NCBI RefSeq assembly: GCF_002197665.1
Contig: NZ_NBBJ01000001.1
Coordinates: 930,001 to 994,000, forward strand
From: Sphingomonas mucosissima
GTDB taxonomy: Bacteria; Pseudomonadota; Alphaproteobacteria; Sphingomonadales; Sphingomonadaceae
Length of the DNA: 64,000 nt
Reading direction: 5' to 3'
Notes under the pieces: generated by a model
The model's input: only the letters and a program-made list of their open reading frames with translations
Told to the model about the DNA's origin: nothing
Databases searched by the model: none
Translations under genes and position numbers: made by a program
Part shown: in pieces, positions 53,914 to 61,441 of the stretch
Layout of the letters: the number at the start of each line of letters is the position of its first letter
How positions within the stretch are numbered: the first letter of the stretch is position 1

Positions 53914-54017
53914 CCGCGACTCCTCAAGAGCAGATGCCGATCCTTTCATCCCGCCACGCCGCAGGCAAGCGCGTTAACGTCGTTTTTGCCCGCAAGATCA
54001 ACGCGTCGGGAAGGTGC

Positions 54018-55676
54018 CTATGTGCGATTTGCCGCGCTTAGGACGGCGCGCACGCTTGCCGTGGCGACGTCCGTGTCGATGCCAACACCCCAAATGGTTC
54101 TGCCCTCAGCGGTGCGGCACTCAATATACGCCACCGCCTGCGCTCCCGCGCCATGACCAATGGCGTGTTCGGCGTAATCGACCACGTCCAGCGCAGGGCC
54201 GGTCGATTCGGCCAGCGCAGCGACCACGCCAGAGATGAGCCCGTTGCCCCGGCCCGAAAGCGAGCGCTCCTCACCGTCGATTGCGACCCGGCCGACGAAC
54301 AGGCGGTCGCCGACGCTGCCGGTTTCCTCATAGTCGCGAAGCACAAAGCGGTCGCTGTCACCCGGGAGATAGGTGCGCTCGAACGCGCCCCAGATGTCCG
54401 CGGCGTTGAGTTCGCGGCTGGTTTCGTCGGCGAGCGCCTGCACATGGCGGCTGAAGTCCGCTTGCAGTCGCTTGGGCAGCTTCAAGCCCTTGTCCTGCTC
54501 GATCACCCAGGCGACGCCGCCCTTGCCCGATTGCGAGTTGACGCGAATGACGGCCTCGTAACTGCGGCCGAGATCGGCGGGATCGATCGGGAGGTACGGC
54601 ACTTCCCACAGATCGTCATTGCGAGCAGCCTGGGCCGCAAAACCCTTCTTGATCGCGTCCTGATGGCTGCCCGAAAAAGCGGTGAAGACGAGGTCACCGG
54701 CATAAGGCGTGCGCGGGTGGACGGGAATGTTGGTGACATATTCCACCGTCTTTGCGACGCCGTCGATGTCGGAGAGATCCAACCCCGGATCAACACCTTG
54801 GGTGTACATGTTAAGCGCAACTGTCACCAGGTCGCAGTTCCCGGTGCGCTCGCCATTCCCCAACAGGCACCCCTCGACGCGATCGGCACCCGCCATCAGC
54901 CCCAGTTCCGCCGCCGCAACGCCGGTCCCACGATCATTATGGGTGTGAAGGCTGATCACCACGGCATCGCGGCTCGGGATGTTGCGGCAGAAATATTCGA
55001 TCTGGTCGGCATAGACATTTGGCGTCGCGCACTCGACCGTGGCTGGCAGGTTCAGGATCAGCGGATGCTCGGCGGTGGGCCGGAGAACGTCCATGACAGC
55101 CGCGCAGACCTCGATACTGAAATCCACTTCTGCGGTGGAGAAGGTCTCGGGACTATATTCGAAATGCCATTCCGTTCCCGGGCGCTTGGCGGCTTCGTCG
55201 CGCAGGACCTTCGCGCCTTCGATTGCGATCGATTTCACCTCGTCGCGGCTCATGCCGAAAACGATCCGCCGCCAAGCCGGGCTAACGGCGTTGTAGAGGT
55301 GAACGATCGCTGCGTGCGCGCCTTCCAGGCTCCGGAAGCTGGTCTCGATCAGGTCCCGGCGCGATTGCGTCAACACCTGGATCTTTACGTCTTCCGGCAC
55401 CCGATCCTGCTTGATCAGGCCGGAGATGAAGTCGAACTCGGTCGCTCCGGCAGACGGGAAGCCGACCTCGATCTCCTTCAGCCCGATCTTCACCAGAAGG
55501 TCGAAGAAGCGCGTCTTCTTTTCGGCGTCCATCGGATCAATGAGTGCCTGATTGCCGTCGCGTAGATCGGTGGACAACCAGCGCGGCGCACGCGTGATCG
55601 TTTTTGACGGCCACTGCCGGTCGGGCATGTCGATGGTGGGAAACGGGCGATACTTGGTCGATGGGTCGCGCAGCAT
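54018..55676 (-). CDS. leuA: 2-isopropylmalate synthase
   Basis: A 552-residue enzyme that condenses acetyl-CoA and 2-oxoisovalerate, the first committed step of leucine synthesis. DRE-TIM barrel signatures are [15 protein letters not shown] (the metal DRD/RDG stretch), [51 protein letters not shown]; the C-terminal regulatory domain for leucine feedback spans about 430-552. This long form (LeuA2 type) is typical of actinobacteria and many proteobacteria. The ATG at 55676 follows an attenuator-like leader. Confidence 0.95.
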
Positions 55677-55692
55677 GAATAGGCTCGCTCTG

Positions 55693-55772
55693 CTAAGGGG
55701 CTTCTGGGTTCCACTGGCCCTTAGGCGCGTCGCGATGCCCGTGGGCACGCGTGGGTGTTCGCGCCTAAGGGC
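55693..55772 (-). promoter_or_regulatory. Leucine attenuator structure upstream of leuA
   Basis: On the minus strand segment A GCCCTTAGGCGCG (plus 55760-55772) is perfectly complementary over 13 bp to segment B (55717-55729) across 30 nt. Segment C, GCCCCTTAG (55693-55701), can instead pair with B (CTAAGGG/CCCTTAG plus a GGGC/GCCC extension). The leader peptide stop codon lies inside A. A:B and B:C are mutually exclusive, the standard attenuator logic: a ribosome stalled at the Leu codons leaves A free to hold B and free C, while a ribosome at the stop codon covers A and lets B:C form. No U-tract follows B:C, so control could be at translation or by Rho. Confidence 0.7.
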
Positions 55773-55809
55773 GCGTAAGTCGAAGCAGAAGGCCAGTCGC
55801 GCAGATCAT
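55765..55809 (-). CDS. leuL: Leu operon leader peptide
   Basis: A 14-codon frame, [14 protein letters not shown], with Leu codons at positions 7, 8, 9 and 11 (CTT, CTG, CTT, CTT). Four Leu codons in 14, clustered, directly before the complementary segments upstream of leuA, is the classical leader peptide pattern. GAGG lies 2 bp before the ATG, a short spacing, so translation may be weak. It starts 133 bp upstream of the leuA ATG. Confidence 0.72.
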
Positions 55810-55928
55810 CGCCTCTTGGTTGCCCGATCAGGCATTCGAAGTCCAGCGACAAAGAAATTTGACGGTTTCGTAATTGTTTGTGCGGCAAATGGCGGCGCGC
55901 CGGACGGCCGACCAAGAGGGAGTTCAGC

Positions 55929-56324
55929 GTGAGGCAGCTACTGTACATCAGCACGGCCACACCGGGCGCCGCCATCGACATCAGTGGAATTCTTGCCACG
56001 TCGCTGCGCAATAATCGCCGAGATGGGGTAACTGGCCTGTTGTGGACGGATGAGCGCCGGTTCCTCCAGGCTCTGGAGGGATCCGAAGACGCTATCCAGA
56101 GCGCGCTTCTGCGGATCAAGTTCGACACCCGCCATCGCGGGATTGTGGTTCTGCAAGATCGCGCCATCGCCATCCGCGAATTCGGCGCGTGGGAAATGGC
56201 ACGGCGCGGCCCGGCCGATACTGCCGACGCGTTTGATGGACGCATGCGACAGTATCTTTCCGGGGCCTCGCCGTCGGTTCGCGGCACGTTCGAAGGGCTG
56301 ATCGCCGCTCGACGTGCCGCCTAG
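55929..56324 (+). CDS. Short BLUF-domain blue-light photoreceptor
   Basis: A 131-residue BLUF protein that binds FAD and senses blue light. The flavin-contacting residues are in place: Tyr6 in LLYIS, Asn29 in SLRNN and Gln47 in RFLQALEG, spaced 23 and 18 apart as in short BLUF proteins. There is no attached output domain, so it must act on a partner protein. The GTG start is chosen because GAGGGAG lies 6 bp upstream and the domain begins there. It ends 3 bp from the convergent yceI-like gene. Confidence 0.9.
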   Translation: MRQLLYISTATPGAAIDISGILATSLRNNRRDGVTGLLWTDERRFLQALEGSEDAIQSALLRIKFDTRHRGIVVLQDRAIAIREFGAWEMARRGPADTADAFDGRMRQYLSGASPSVRGTFEGLIAARRAA

Positions 56325-56327
56325 TGA

Positions 56328-56963
56328 TCATTTTTCGAAGGCAGCGGTGATCTTCAGCTTCACTTCGTCAGAGACCATGGGAATGCCATAGCCGATCTTG
56401 AACTCGCTGCGGCGAATCGCACCGGTGGCGGTGAAGCCGACATTCTCCTTGCCGCCCATCTGCGCCGGCATCTTGCCTGCGCCATAGAAGCTTGCCTCCA
56501 GCGTAACTGGACGGGTGACGCCGTTCAGCGTCAGATTGCCCTCGATGCGGGCGCTCTCGCCGCTTGGCGTGACACGCGTCGAAACAAAGCGCGCTGGCGC
56601 TGGCGCAGCGCCGAAGAAGTCGGCCTGCTTGCCGGCATCCGCGGGCTTCAGCAGATGCTTGGTCAGGCCAGCGCTGGCGGTGGTGACCTCCGCAACCGGG
56701 ATGGTCACGTCCACCTTGGCTGCCGCGGGATTCTTTGGATCAAGCGTAAGCGTGCCGGTTACGTTGCCGAACAGCCCGAAATAGGGCGAGAAACCAAGGT
56801 GATCGACGGTCCATTCCACCAGCGTGTGGCCCGGATCGGCCGTGTAGGTTCCGCCCGTGATCGCGGCGACGTTCTTGGTGCCCGGCGCGCTGCTCGGCGC
56901 TTGCTGCGCTACAACGGCGCCGGTCAGAAGGGCAGAAAATAGGAAAGCGTGTGCGATGCGCAT
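56328..56963 (-). CDS. YceI family protein
   Basis: A 211-residue exported lipocalin-like protein with a signal peptide (cleavage near VVAQQAPS). The YceI fold is clear: YTADPGHTLVEWTVDHLGFS, GLFGNVTGTLTLD, PVAEVTTASAGLTKHLLKPADAGKQADFFGAA and RSEFKIGYGIPMVSDEVKL. YceI proteins bind polyisoprenoids in the periplasm; the E. coli member responds to alkaline pH. Monocistronic by position. Confidence 0.9.
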   Translation of the reverse strand: MRIAHAFLFSALLTGAVVAQQAPSSAPGTKNVAAITGGTYTADPGHTLVEWTVDHLGFSPYFGLFGNVTGTLTLDPKNPAAAKVDVTIPVAEVTTASAGLTKHLLKPADAGKQADFFGAAPAPARFVSTRVTPSGESARIEGNLTLNGVTRPVTLEASFYGAGKMPAQMGGKENVGFTATGAIRRSEFKIGYGIPMVSDEVKLKITAAFEK

Positions 56964-57047
56964 GATAAAGGCTCCCGAACCGTTTCACGTTTGAAACCAC
57001 AACGCGCTCCGGCAGGAAAGCTCCTCACGTAAAACAACCCGTTTCCA

Positions 57048-57797
57048 TTATTTTTCGATCCCCACCGTCAGGTCGAATTTGATGCGCACCCACACGCCGA
57101 TCATCGGCTTTCCATTCACCCGCGGCGGGCGGACGAGGAACTGCCAGGATGCGCGGCGAAGCCCACGGGCGATGCCGGAGCCAGGCGTTTCGCCCATCTC
57201 ACGACAATCATCTACGCGGTTCCGCTCCGCGGTCCGGCAGGCGATTACGCCCCATCCGCTCTCCTGACGGGCTGGCAAGTACGTCGCGAGCTCGGCACGG
57301 GTGGGCTCACGAACCCACTCGGCCGCATATAGTGTCTCGCCGCCGGGTCCAGCGCCCGGGACGCCCTGGTCGCTGCCGCTATCGGCACCTCCCGCGGATT
57401 TGCCTCCCGCCTCCACGGCCGCCGATGGAATCCGCCCGATGTCGGCTCCGGCATAATCGGCGCGCGAAAGGTTGATCACGCCCGGCAGCTCGATCGGCGG
57501 GGGTGGAAGGGTCGGCGGTGCAGGGGGCAACGGCCTCCGTTCGGCCCGCTGGGTCTGCTCTTGTCGGCGCTGTTCCGTCCGTTCCGAGCTACGCTCCTGC
57601 GCCGGTGCAGGGCTGCCGACGTCAAAGGTCGACAGCGGGCGCTCGTCGCCAGGCGGCAGAAGCGGAATCCCCCCCATTTTGATCAGCACGAGGATCAGCA
57701 ATCCGACGATCGTAAGGGCGAGCCCGATCGATGCCGCGCGATCGCGCGCAGAAGGCTTAGCCCGATACGCCGTATAGGTGGGAGACGCCGCGCGCAT
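57048..57797 (-). CDS. Conserved membrane protein with Pro-rich periplasmic domain
   Basis: A 249-residue protein: a cytoplasmic basic N-terminus, one transmembrane helix (about 24-41, IGLALTIVGLLILVLIKMG), a Pro/Glu/Arg-rich linker (RPLPPAPPTLPPPPIELPG), then a globular periplasmic domain with a conserved-looking end, FLVRPPRVNGKPMIGVWVRI. The linker and topology resemble TonB, but the TonB C-terminal signature is missing; it may be a sphingomonad-specific envelope protein. Two Cys residues in the C-terminal domain could form a disulfide. No function can be assigned. Confidence 0.75.
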   Translation of the reverse strand: MRAASPTYTAYRAKPSARDRAASIGLALTIVGLLILVLIKMGGIPLLPPGDERPLSTFDVGSPAPAQERSSERTEQRRQEQTQRAERRPLPPAPPTLPPPPIELPGVINLSRADYAGADIGRIPSAAVEAGGKSAGGADSGSDQGVPGAGPGGETLYAAEWVREPTRAELATYLPARQESGWGVIACRTAERNRVDDCREMGETPGSGIARGLRRASWQFLVRPPRVNGKPMIGVWVRIKFDLTVGIEK

Positions 57798-57943
57798 CGC
57801 TGCGCGCCTAGCGGGTTGGGGAAGTACCTACAATCCAGCGCTTACTTCGGCGAACCACGGGTTGAGTCCGGGCCCGCCGAGTTGCCGAATTGCCGAGCTG
57901 CTCCCCAGCTAGCGGAGAGGTCCGCTCGGCAATCTCGCAAATC

Positions 57944-59090
<1,147 letters not shown>

Positions 59091-59098
59091 GAAAACTG

Positions 59099-59614
59099 CT
59101 ATGCCGCATCCTTGCCGCGCGCGATGGCGACAATGCCGGTGCGCGCGACTTCGATCAGGCCGACCTCGCTCATCAGCTCGACGAATTTGTCGATCTTCTC
59201 GGTCCCGCCGGTGACTTCGAAGACGAAGCTGGATGTCGTCGCATCGACCACTCGCGCACGATAAACATCCGCCAGCCGAAGCGCCTCGATCCGATGGTCG
59301 CCGACACCGCGCACTTTCACCAGCGCCAATTCGCGCTCGACATGCGCGCCCTCGGCGGTGAGGTCGCGGACCTTGTGAACCGGCACGAGGCGATCAAGCT
59401 GCGCCACGATCTGCTCCAGCATCGGCTTGCTGGCGGACGTCACGATCGTGATCCGGCTCACCGCCTTGTCCACGGTGATCTCGCTCACCGTCAGGCTTTC
59501 GATATTGTAGCCGCGTGCGGTGAACAGCCCGGCGATCCGCGCGAGAATGCCCGGCTCGTTGTCGACGATGACAGCAAGCGTGTGCCGCTCTGCCGTTTCC
59601 GATTTGATATGCAC
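59099..59614 (-). CDS. ilvN: Acetolactate synthase small (regulatory) subunit
   Basis: A 171-residue regulatory subunit with an N-terminal ACT domain (TLAVIVDNEPGILARIAGLFTARGYNIESL) and a C-terminal domain starting near residue 80. It binds valine and makes the large subunit feedback-sensitive. It lies 81 bp after ilvB, and a CT-rich hairpin sits in that gap. Confidence 0.96.
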   Translation of the reverse strand: MHIKSETAERHTLAVIVDNEPGILARIAGLFTARGYNIESLTVSEITVDKAVSRITIVTSASKPMLEQIVAQLDRLVPVHKVRDLTAEGAHVERELALVKVRGVGDHRIEALRLADVYRARVVDATTSSFVFEVTGGTEKIDKFVELMSEVGLIEVARTGIVAIARGKDAA

Positions 59615-59695: not shown

Positions 59696-61441
59696 TCAGA
59701 CCAGCGCCTTCGCCTCGTCATCCATGGTGCCCGATACTTCGTTGGCCTGCAGGATCATGTCAGTATGGGCGGCGCCGCTCGGGATCATCGGGAAGCAATT
59801 GGCAAGCTTCGCCACCATGCAGTCCACCATCACAGGGCCGTCATGAGCAAGCATCTCGGCAATCCCCGCGTCCAGCTGGTCCGGGTGCTCGATGCGAATG
59901 CCCTTCCAGCCATAAGCCTCGGCCAGCCTCACGAAATCGGGAAGCGAGTCCGAATAGCTTTCGGCATAGCGGCTCTCATAGGTGAGTTCCTGCCACTGGC
60001 GGACCATTCCCATATATTCGTTGTTGAGGATGAAAACCTTCACCGGGAGGCGATATTGCGTCGCCGTCGCCAGCTCCTGGATGTTCATCTGGATCGAGGC
60101 TTCGCCGGCGATGTCGATGACGAGCGCATTCGGATTGCCGAGCTGCGCGCCGATCGCTGCCGGCAGGCCATAGCCCATCGTTCCTAGCCCGCCCGAGGTC
60201 AGCCACTTGTTCGGCTTTTCGAAGCCGAAATGCTGGGCCGCCCACATCTGATGCTGGCCGACTTCCGTGGTGATGATCGGTTCTCGGGCGTGCGTCGCCT
60301 CCCACAGCGCACGGACGGCGCGCTGCGGCATGATGACTTCATTGTCCTGCGGGAAGTTCAGGCACTGGACGGCGCGCCAGCCCTGGATCCTCCGCCACCA
60401 TTCCGCGGTGTCGGGCTTGGGATGCTGCCGCGCCTTCCAGATGCGGACCATGTCCTCCATCGCGTGGCCGGCATCGGCAACGATGCCCAGATCGATCCGC
60501 ACCGTCTTGTTGATGCTCGACCGATCGACGTCGATGTGAACCTTGCGGCTGTTCGGGGAAAAGGCATCGAGCCGCCCGGTGACGCGATCGTCGAAGCGCG
60601 CGCCGATCGCGATGATCAGGTCGGCCTGGTTCATCGCCATATTGGCTTCATAGGTGCCGTGCATGCCCAGCATGCCGAGGAACTGCGGCGAGCTCGCCGG
60701 AAAGACGCCGAGGCCCATCAGCGTCGAGGTGACAGGCGCGCCCGTCAGCCGGGCGAGTTCGTGCAACAGCAGCGACGCCGCCGGGCCGGAATTGATGATT
60801 CCGCCACCGGTGTAGAAGATCGGGCGTTCGGCAGCGGCCAGCATGTCGATCGCTTGCTCGATATCGCTTCGGTCCGCCTTCAACGCCGGGCGATAGGTCT
60901 TGTGCTGGATCGGTCCCGGCTTCTGGTAGGCGGCAGTTGCCACCTGAACGTCCTTGGGGATGTCGATGACGACCGGCCCGGGGCGCCCGGAGGTGGCGAT
61001 ATGGAACGCCTCGTGAATGACGCCGCCGAGCAAGGCGGGGTCCTTCACCAGATAATTATGTTTCGTGCAGTGCCGAGTAATCCCGACGGTGTCGGCCTCT
61101 TGGAACGCATCCGAGCCGATCAGCGCGGTCGGCACCTGGCCCGTGATGACGACCATCGGGATCGAATCGAGCAAAGCATCGGTGATGCCGGTAACTGCAT
61201 TGGTCGCGCCGGGCCCCGACGTAACCAGAACAACGCCAGGCTTGCCCGTCGAGCGCGCATAGCCCTCCGCAGCATGGGTCGCGGCTTGCTCGTGACGAAC
61301 CAGCACGTGCCGGATCCGGCCCGACCGGAACAGCGCGTCATAAATCGGAAGGACGGCGCCACCTGGATAGCCGAAGATGACGTCCACGCCGAGATCGCAC
61401 AGCGCCTCGACCAGGATGTCTGCTCCGCTCTTCTCAGTCAC
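59696..61441 (-). CDS. ilvB: Acetolactate synthase large subunit
   Basis: A 581-residue TPP enzyme making acetolactate and acetohydroxybutyrate. The cofactor Glu51 is in RHEQAATHAAEGYAR; FAD-domain stretches follow; the TPP-Mg motif reads GEASIQMNIQEL with ILNNEYMGMVRQW. The motif is usually GDG or GDA at this place; Glu447 replaces the metal-ligand Asp. The GTG start at 61441 is supported by AAGGA 8 bp upstream. First gene after miaA on this strand; ilvN and ilvC follow. Confidence 0.96.
   Translation of the reverse strand: MTEKSGADILVEALCDLGVDVIFGYPGGAVLPIYDALFRSGRIRHVLVRHEQAATHAAEGYARSTGKPGVVLVTSGPGATNAVTGITDALLDSIPMVVITGQVPTALIGSDAFQEADTVGITRHCTKHNYLVKDPALLGGVIHEAFHIATSGRPGPVVIDIPKDVQVATAAYQKPGPIQHKTYRPALKADRSDIEQAIDMLAAAERPIFYTGGGIINSGPAASLLLHELARLTGAPVTSTLMGLGVFPASSPQFLGMLGMHGTYEANMAMNQADLIIAIGARFDDRVTGRLDAFSPNSRKVHIDVDRSSINKTVRIDLGIVADAGHAMEDMVRIWKARQHPKPDTAEWWRRIQGWRAVQCLNFPQDNEVIMPQRAVRALWEATHAREPIITTEVGQHQMWAAQHFGFEKPNKWLTSGGLGTMGYGLPAAIGAQLGNPNALVIDIAGEASIQMNIQELATATQYRLPVKVFILNNEYMGMVRQWQELTYESRYAESYSDSLPDFVRLAEAYGWKGIRIEHPDQLDAGIAEMLAHDGPVMVDCMVAKLANCFPMIPSGAAHTDMILQANEVSGTMDDEAKALV

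Follow-up and report, generated by a model that had tools for sequence, protein, structure and literature searches.

A conserved leucine-codon leader upstream of leuA in Sphingomonas mucosissima and other Alphaproteobacteria

The leuA locus and its leader

The window, by which we mean the whole stretch of 64,000 nucleotides of the Sphingomonas mucosissima contig that was analysed, carries on its minus strand a leuA gene whose product matches the TIGR00970 (leuA_yeast) profile with an E value of 9.2e-236. The genes ilvB (59696-61441), ilvN (59099-59614) and ilvC (57944-58963), assigned by Pfam, are located a few kb upstream on the same strand, and an ORF without a Pfam match (57048-57797), a YceI gene and a divergent BLUF gene lie between them and leuA. 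No leader peptide is obvious by eye ahead of ilvB. A plasmid-borne leuA of Sphingomonas parapaucimobilis is 86% identical to that of the window and is annotated with YceI and BLUF genes alongside, the same as in the window.

Upstream of leuA, the initial annotation had described a 14-codon frame with four leucine codons in five, which ends inside a segment (A) that is perfectly complementary over 13 bp to a second segment (B). Both observations are confirmed. The frame runs from 55809 to 55765 on the minus strand and contains CTT CTG CTT followed by CGA CTT, and A (GCCCTTAGGCGCG, 55772-55760) reads as the reverse complement of B (CGCGCCTAAGGGC, 55729-55717) without a mismatch. The 181-nt leader fold is more stable than all 200 of its dinucleotide shuffles (z -3.65). 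The features of the locus are as follows.

55840..55845, minus strand: -35-like hexamer TGGACT, 36 nt ahead of the leader ATG, chosen by its position as in relatives
55765..55809, minus strand: leader ORF of 14 codons, predicted to be leaderless or nearly so from the reading of the frame, its relatives and promoter-like hexamers
55777..55791, minus strand: leucine control codons CTT CTG CTT (CGA) CTT, the proposed anti-Shine-Dalgarno strand (5' side of a pairing termed P0)
55760..55775, minus strand: A self-hairpin CGCGCC-CUUA-GGCGCG overlapping the UAG stop, a family-specific alternative structure
55762..55771, minus strand: A strand of the conserved 10-bp A:B helix (13 bp in the window, 55772-55760)
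55731..55751, minus strand: hairpin P2 between A and B, from folding of the window and of the linker in relatives
55718..55727, minus strand: B strand of the A:B helix (13 bp in the window, 55729-55717)
55684..55706, minus strand: 3' side of P0, with CAGAAG (55706-55701) and AGCAGAG (55694-55688), both complementary to the leucine codons
55692..55701, minus strand: C, the third segment of the initial annotation, GCCCCTTAGC, complementary to B in the window and not conserved
55691-55684, minus strand: purine-rich presumed leuA ribosome-binding region AGAGCGAG, within the 3' side of P0
54018..55676, minus strand: leuA, 2-isopropylmalate synthase of the TIGR00970 leuA_yeast type, with its start at 55676

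Conservation of the leader frame

Related leaders were collected within the genus by leader DNA, where 64 of the 101 genomes have a match at E 0.01 in their leuA upstream region, and within the family by LeuA protein, which finds this leuA in 136 of 199 genomes, 90 of the 136 being taken. Among the loci so obtained (L001-L120), one was dropped as a duplicate (L031 = L001), five (L079, L098, L104, L111 and L113, with the core matched at 20-21 of 24 bases) for want of a located leuA start, and two (L112 and L120) because they lack the core. Of the 112 leaders left, 30 (L001-L030) were picked by leader DNA similarity and are hence biased, and 82 were picked by LeuA protein.

The core CTTCGACTTACGCGCCCTTAGGCG, or a close form of it, is present in 112 of the 114 distinct leaders of genus and family with a located leuA start, and in these the frame core ends in RLxRP and a stop codon, or has its stop at most three codons further on. 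The stop lies at the same position, inside A, in 82 of the 112; in the other 30 it has become TGG (26), CGG (3) or CAG (1), and every one of these 30 has a replacement stop no more than three codons downstream, a count that kinship prevents from being read as 30 independent events. Codon use is close to frozen, with CGA in 111 of the 112 leaders, CTT or CTA as the last leucine codon in all 112 and CCT or CCC also in all 112, and the two codons preceding CGA encode leucine in 106/112 and 96/112. The replacement stops, the near-frozen codons and the leucines at the preceding positions suggest that the leader frame is very probably selected as a frame, and that part of its sequence is also selected at the base level. 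Four leaders (L060, L080, L114 and L117) have few leucine codons ahead of the RL core, which counts against the explanation that we favour below.

The heptamer CGACTTA (55782-55776) is almost invariant in the family, in spite of its position outside A:B and the availability of synonymous codons; in other families, a leucine codon often replaces CGA, but CTTA is mostly retained. The sole explanation that we can offer for this constancy is a partial complementarity to ribosome sites of the TAAGG type.

The A:B helix and local hairpins

Each of the ten A:B pairs is intact in 106 to 112 of the 112 leaders, and one of them is A-U in 83 and G-C in 29 and is broken in none. In the family alignment (A1, 69 of 98 listed segments), 99.3% of the A:B cells are paired, and 23 cells are changed on both sides compared with 5.2 in shuffles; RNAalifold recovers the same ten pairs unaided. 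A class-wide joint alignment (A2, 58 of 66) gives 97.4% paired cells, with changes on both sides in 8 of the 10 pairs and 78 double-changed cells compared with 25.3 in shuffles. In these controls, and in that for the A hairpin below, relatedness is still included in the counts. Two leaders (L062 and L110) in which B is apparently misplaced were kept in the tables and excluded from the alignments.

The linker between A and B, which forms the hairpin P2 in the window, folds better than shuffled sequence in the relatives (mean z -1.45, 112 leaders). The self-hairpin of A, which is mutually exclusive with A:B, also covaries in the family (19 double-changed cells compared with 7.2 in shuffles); as a class-wide feature it was ruled out, as just 69% of its cells pair across the class.

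Based on the frame, its leucine codons, the stop within or just after A and the retention of A:B with compensatory changes, the element very probably regulates leuA through a leucine leader peptide. The initial annotation had named conserved leucine codons and compensatory changes in A, B and C as what to look for in relatives; these are found for the codons, A and B and not for C.

The transcript start

In 103 of the 112 family leaders, the first hexamer of the best promoter-like pair lies 35-40 nt ahead of the leader ATG, its commonest form being TGGACA (43 leaders); in 101, the second hexamer stops 7-11 nt short of the ATG. The scores average 7.2, compared with 5.6 in shuffled sequence. From the position of these hexamers in most relatives, the leader ORF is predicted to start at, or within a few nt of, the transcript start and is thus probably leaderless or close to it. 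For the window, inspection by eye reveals just the first hexamer, and the -10 is weak; the best-scoring pair lies elsewhere and is also weak (score 6), and a consensus scan finds no promoter. The short ribosome-site spacing, which the initial annotation had cited as leaving the exact mechanism open, may not matter for a leader ORF that is nearly leaderless.

Distribution in the Alphaproteobacteria

A covariance model built from the family leaders (R1) matches 44 of 387 alphaproteobacterial genomes, six of which belong to the family. Among 24 R1 loci outside the family, the nearby gene is 24-29% identical to the LeuA of the window in 21 and about 59% identical in two, and no such gene was found in one; in several of these genomes, the neighbour was identified as a leuA of the TIGR00973 type. 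In an unbiased sample of TIGR00973 leuA genes (76 alphaproteobacterial genomes match, of which 70 were used), the strict form of the element precedes leuA in 33 of 70 regions compared with 3 of 350 shuffled regions, and the relaxed form in 46 of 70 compared with 22 of 350. The core of these leaders is mostly CTTA...GCCCCTGA and their B reads TCAGGGG, and the stop again usually falls within A. A second model, R2, has matches in 96 of 289 alphaproteobacterial genomes (74 of 218 genera), some genomes of the class having contributed sequences to it. Over 299 genomes of the phylum, R2 matches 73, all in the class save one weak match (E 0.007), and an occurrence outside the class was ruled out, since the two matches among 184 genomes of the class to which that weak match belongs (the class of G832) both have E >0.005, which is about chance level.

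A third set of 60 loci was taken from genomes that had not been used to build R2, the loci being chosen as R2 matches. The element and a leuA motif are both present in the fetched stretch in 50 of the 60, the other ten having no leuA motif there; in at least three (L329, L332 and L364), A and B had been placed away from the model core. A second copy of the element in the genome was also ruled out: besides the leuA leader and the antisense image at its own position (E 0.004), a whole-genome search gave seven hits, each with E >1.

The same leader thus stands before two leuA families of about 26% identity, TIGR00970 in the family of the window and TIGR00973 in many other Alphaproteobacteria. Within family f19, the element precedes a TIGR00973 leuA in g128 (G405 and G519; loci L231 and L229) and a leuA about 59% identical to that of the window in g292 (G599 and G667; loci L169 and L170). 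The occurrence of two leuA families behind one leader in f19 implies that exchange between leader and gene took place repeatedly, or in at least two lineages, whether by substitution of the gene downstream of the leader or by capture of the leader.

The element does not correspond to a described Rfam family, which was ruled out for lack of a covariance-model match in Rfam 15: over 54000-58500, the search gave merely a sub-threshold Xist_exon1 hit (57704-57645, E 0.87), and 26 loci, including the region of the window (L001), gave no match at E 0.5. It is a strong candidate for an RNA family outside Rfam 15 that is present in many Alphaproteobacteria.

Predicted pairing of the leucine codons with the leuA ribosome-binding region

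In the free fold of the window, the leucine codons pair with a stretch downstream of B that includes CAGAAG (55706-55701). This pairing, P0, was assessed in the relatives by permutation, the leucine-codon stretch of each leader being compared with the 34 nt before its own leuA and before the leuA of other species. Over the 112 family leaders, P0 is 16.54 for own pairs and 14.80 for permuted ones (z 7.1, 0/3000), and among the corresponding tests upstream sequence gives a z of 0.2, the A-B linker 0.6, B -0.8, A 1.8 and the first codons of the leader 3.3. When permuted within four groups, namely the genus and three sets formed by leader features, which are not a phylogeny, P0 keeps a z of 5.9 (0/3000), with controls at 0.5 and 0.7. 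Taken singly, the three other groups give z values of 4.7, 3.4 and 4.4, and the genus of the window gives -0.7. In this genus (33 leaders), own and foreign sites are equally complementary (15.33 and 15.65), and P0 is weakly better than in shuffled sequence (mean z -0.29, se 0.20; upstream control 0.59); both results count against the explanation that we favour.

P0 recurs outside the family. In a second sample with the other leuA family (n 45), it has a z of 4.5 (0/3000; controls -0.8 to 1.4), with 10 bp in L199 and 8 bp in L219 as examples. In the third set, which lies outside model building (n 49), the z is 2.9 (5/3000; controls -0.1 to 2.0), where the 1.5-2.0 reached by some of the controls, set against the 2.9 of P0, tells against the favoured explanation. 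Pairing of the leucine codons with the leuA site is therefore well supported by sequence comparison for the family at large and unproven for the genus of the window. At the level of the family, the leuA initiation region appears to have the leucine-codon run, and not B, as its partner.

Eight plasmid-borne leuA regions, whose start codons were set by simple rules (the choice for L126 may be wrong), include three with an unusual exact match between codons and site (L121 and L123, 0/500 shuffles; L124, 0.026). An exact match in every relative is thereby ruled out, as L122, L125, L126, L127 and L128 lack it. In L121 (Rhizobium sp. AB2/73) and L123 (Cupriavidus metallidurans), a leader-like stretch and the leuA ribosome site share 11-nt exact complements, which suggests that the same design may exist beyond the main range of the element. 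By organism, the exact codon-to-ribosome-site matches measure 11 nt in a betaproteobacterium, 11 nt in a Rhizobium and 9 nt in one Microbacterium leuA region.

Folding with a stalled ribosome

Stalling was modelled by masking a 29-nt ribosome footprint in the leader fold. With the window masked on the first, second or third leucine codon of the run, A:B stays at 0.98-1.00 and the pairing of the leucine run with downstream sequence drops from 0.67 to at most 0.04; the unpaired fraction of the leuA site is 0.29 in the free fold, 0.46-0.53 for these three positions and 0.35 with the ribosome at the stop. With longer upstream sequence in the fold, the openness of the site in the window is 0.20 without a ribosome, 0.38 and 0.56 for stalled positions and 0.31 at the stop.

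Across the 112 leaders, the mean opening of the site rises from 0.43 to 0.52 for a ribosome stalled two codons before the last leucine and is 0.45 at the stop, while a control stretch goes from 0.49 to 0.54 (a gain of 0.046 compared with 0.092 for the leuA site). For 50 other leaders, the site goes from 0.43 to 0.54, with 0.48 at the stop, and the control from 0.45 to 0.49. The predicted accessibility effect thus has the right sign and a modest size. Against it, stalling opens the site further than a ribosome at the stop does in just 68 of the 112 family leaders and 27 of the 50 others.

A proposed translational attenuation model

Comparison of the leaders supports, at the sequence level, the ORF, the placement of its stop, the A:B helix and a species-matched complementarity between codon run and leuA site as parts of the element in family and class. 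Hence, we favour translational attenuation, in which the leucine codons of a near-leaderless ORF double as an anti-Shine-Dalgarno strand, and we hold this to be slightly better than an even guess. A short, (nearly) leaderless ORF would end in leucine codons, with its stop in the 5' strand of A:B. When leucine is plentiful, the ribosome would complete the ORF and depart, and A:B would fold with P2 in its loop, bringing the leucine-codon strand against the leuA ribosome-binding region and covering the site by P0. When leucine is scarce, the ribosome would stall on the leucine codons and block P0, with A:B still possible; the leuA site would then be open and leuA translated, so that leucine starvation would induce leuA. 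We infer the stalling, the sequestration of the site and the direction of regulation, as well as the choice of translation over transcription as the regulated step and the action of P0 in the genus of the window.

Alternative explanations

A transcriptional mechanism that depends on Rho is the first alternative to be considered. Full translation of the leader would expose the C-rich stretch between B and leuA, at which Rho would terminate, and a stalled ribosome would refold the leader and prevent this. The initial annotation had pointed out that a U-tract is missing, which holds for nearly all leaders: five consecutive T in the 12 nt that follow B occur in just 2 of the 112 family leaders and in none of the 50 others, and a scan of 55500-56100 finds no terminator on the leuA strand, the single terminator-like site being on the plus strand (55581-55595). 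This scarcity of U-tracts would fit Rho, as would the composition of the B-to-leuA stretch (C 0.35, A 0.25, G 0.23, T 0.17), but the C-richness may just reflect a GC-rich genome, and the species-matched pairing between leucine codons and leuA site would be left unexplained; we regard Rho as an unlikely explanation.

A protein or ligand that binds the RNA, with the near-invariant CGACTTA...CCC as its recognition site and the ORF as secondary, could account for why CGA and the last leucine codon hardly vary in spite of synonymous codons and of the position of CGACTTA outside the A:B pairs. A protein has also been proposed for the actinobacterial LEU element, as stated in the available text of Seliverstov et al. 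(PMC1262725). However, the replacement of every lost stop suggests that the reading frame itself is selected, and outside the family CGA often gives way to a leucine codon, which makes such a binding site improbable.

The scheme of the initial annotation had a ribosome at the stop covering A, so that B would pair with C and block leuA, whereas stalling would let A:B form and free C. The window taken by itself is consistent with this: a ribosome mask placed on the stop codon brings the pairing of B with downstream sequence to 0.52 and leaves the leuA site less open than masks on the first three leucine codons do. Moreover, masking the last leucine codon gives 0.47 for A:B, 0.37 for B with downstream sequence and a site that is 0.42 open, a predicted fold nearer to this scheme, which slightly lowers our confidence in translational attenuation. 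The relatives speak against C. The longest exact complement to B at its position, 7 nt in the window, is at most 5 nt in 104 of the 112 leaders, 6 nt in six and 7 nt in two, and in L002, the best other leader of the genus search (81% DNA identity), the position reads GCCCATAGC and the pairing is broken. Over the 112 leaders, B fits the downstream sequence of its own species no better than that of permuted species (z -2.2 in the middle stretch and -0.8 around the ribosome site), and within the genus B pairs downstream less stably than shuffled sequence (mean z 0.64). As B shows no excess complementarity to the stretch before leuA in the relatives, C is not a conserved part of the element, and the B:C helix was ruled out as a conserved structure. 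The third segment thus exists and pairs in the window, and the proposal of a leuL/leuA-type attenuator stands as far as a leucine leader-peptide regulator is concerned; the three-segment switch lacks comparative support and is, in our judgement, quite improbable.

One leader of another family (L258, genome G524) has eight T directly after B and looks terminator-like, unlike nearly all other leaders, which counts against translational attenuation. An intrinsic terminator was rejected on the window scan and the lack of U-tracts, with L258 as an unexplained exception. A classical transcription attenuator with A:B or another hairpin as its terminator, to which the leader peptide, the overlapping helix and L258 would conform, is accordingly very improbable, given those same negative results and the wrong logic for induction by starvation that would follow from A:B forming during a stall on the first leucine codons.

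Relation to known systems and significance

The enterobacterial leuL leader (Leu_leader in Rfam) has leucine codons in a short ORF before leuA and acts through alternative RNA folds. The element described here has the same type of ORF before leuA and alternative folds, but no intrinsic terminator, no conserved third segment and no Rfam match. In translational attenuation of the ermC type, an antibiotic-stalled ribosome in a leader ORF opens a covered ribosome-binding site; the logic of a stall that opens a site would be the same, with the difference that the covering strand would here consist of the very codons on which the ribosome stalls. Vitreschak et al. reportedly predicted branched-chain attenuators in alphaproteobacteria in 2004, and part of the present finding may therefore already be in print. 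A literature search over titles and the openings of abstracts, with subscription papers mostly outside its range, found no description of an alphaproteobacterial leuA leader, and the accessible portions of PMC4117421, PMC10117765 and PMC2965389 do not mention one.

The description closest to the present element is that of the LEU element before actinobacterial leuA, which has a base stem formed by the run of leucine codons and the Shine-Dalgarno box of leuA, as described in the accessible text of Seliverstov et al. 2005, where the other elements of an attenuator are said to be missing (PMC1262725). According to the same text, mutation of the leucine codons had no influence on regulation, which led the authors to doubt codon-based sensing (PMC1262725). 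This objection would by analogy bear on the alphaproteobacterial element too, and counts against the favoured explanation. As far as that text goes, the two elements share a leucine-codon ORF upstream of leuA; a base stem of leucine codons and leuA site would be a second likeness, one of topology, which is strong here over family and class and not significant within the genus of the window. The LEU element is described with a pseudoknot and in Actinobacteria, whereas the present one is found in Alphaproteobacteria and has a covariation-backed inner structure, A:B over the stop codon, as well as a family-specific A hairpin. In Sinorhizobium meliloti, also an alphaproteobacterium, trpL encodes a leader peptide that likewise has 14 residues; it is leaderless, as the present one is predicted to be or nearly so, and is described in the accessible text as a transcription attenuator that also gives rise to a small RNA (PMC10117765), in contrast to the present leader, in which no terminator is seen.

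If the favoured explanation is true, the element would represent compact amino-acid sensing without a terminator or a third RNA segment, both of which would be dispensable because the codons that read leucine are also the strand that covers the gene start. Tentatively, and with somewhat less than even confidence, the leaders may form a class of alphaproteobacterial leucine switches whose codons for sensing leucine also serve as the anti-Shine-Dalgarno strand, with the stop inside the partner helix and two leuA families served, as a general and repeatedly used design. The same regulatory leader before two distant leuA families would be a case of gene replacement or leader capture, and small ORFs ahead of leuA would, if this holds, gain a function.
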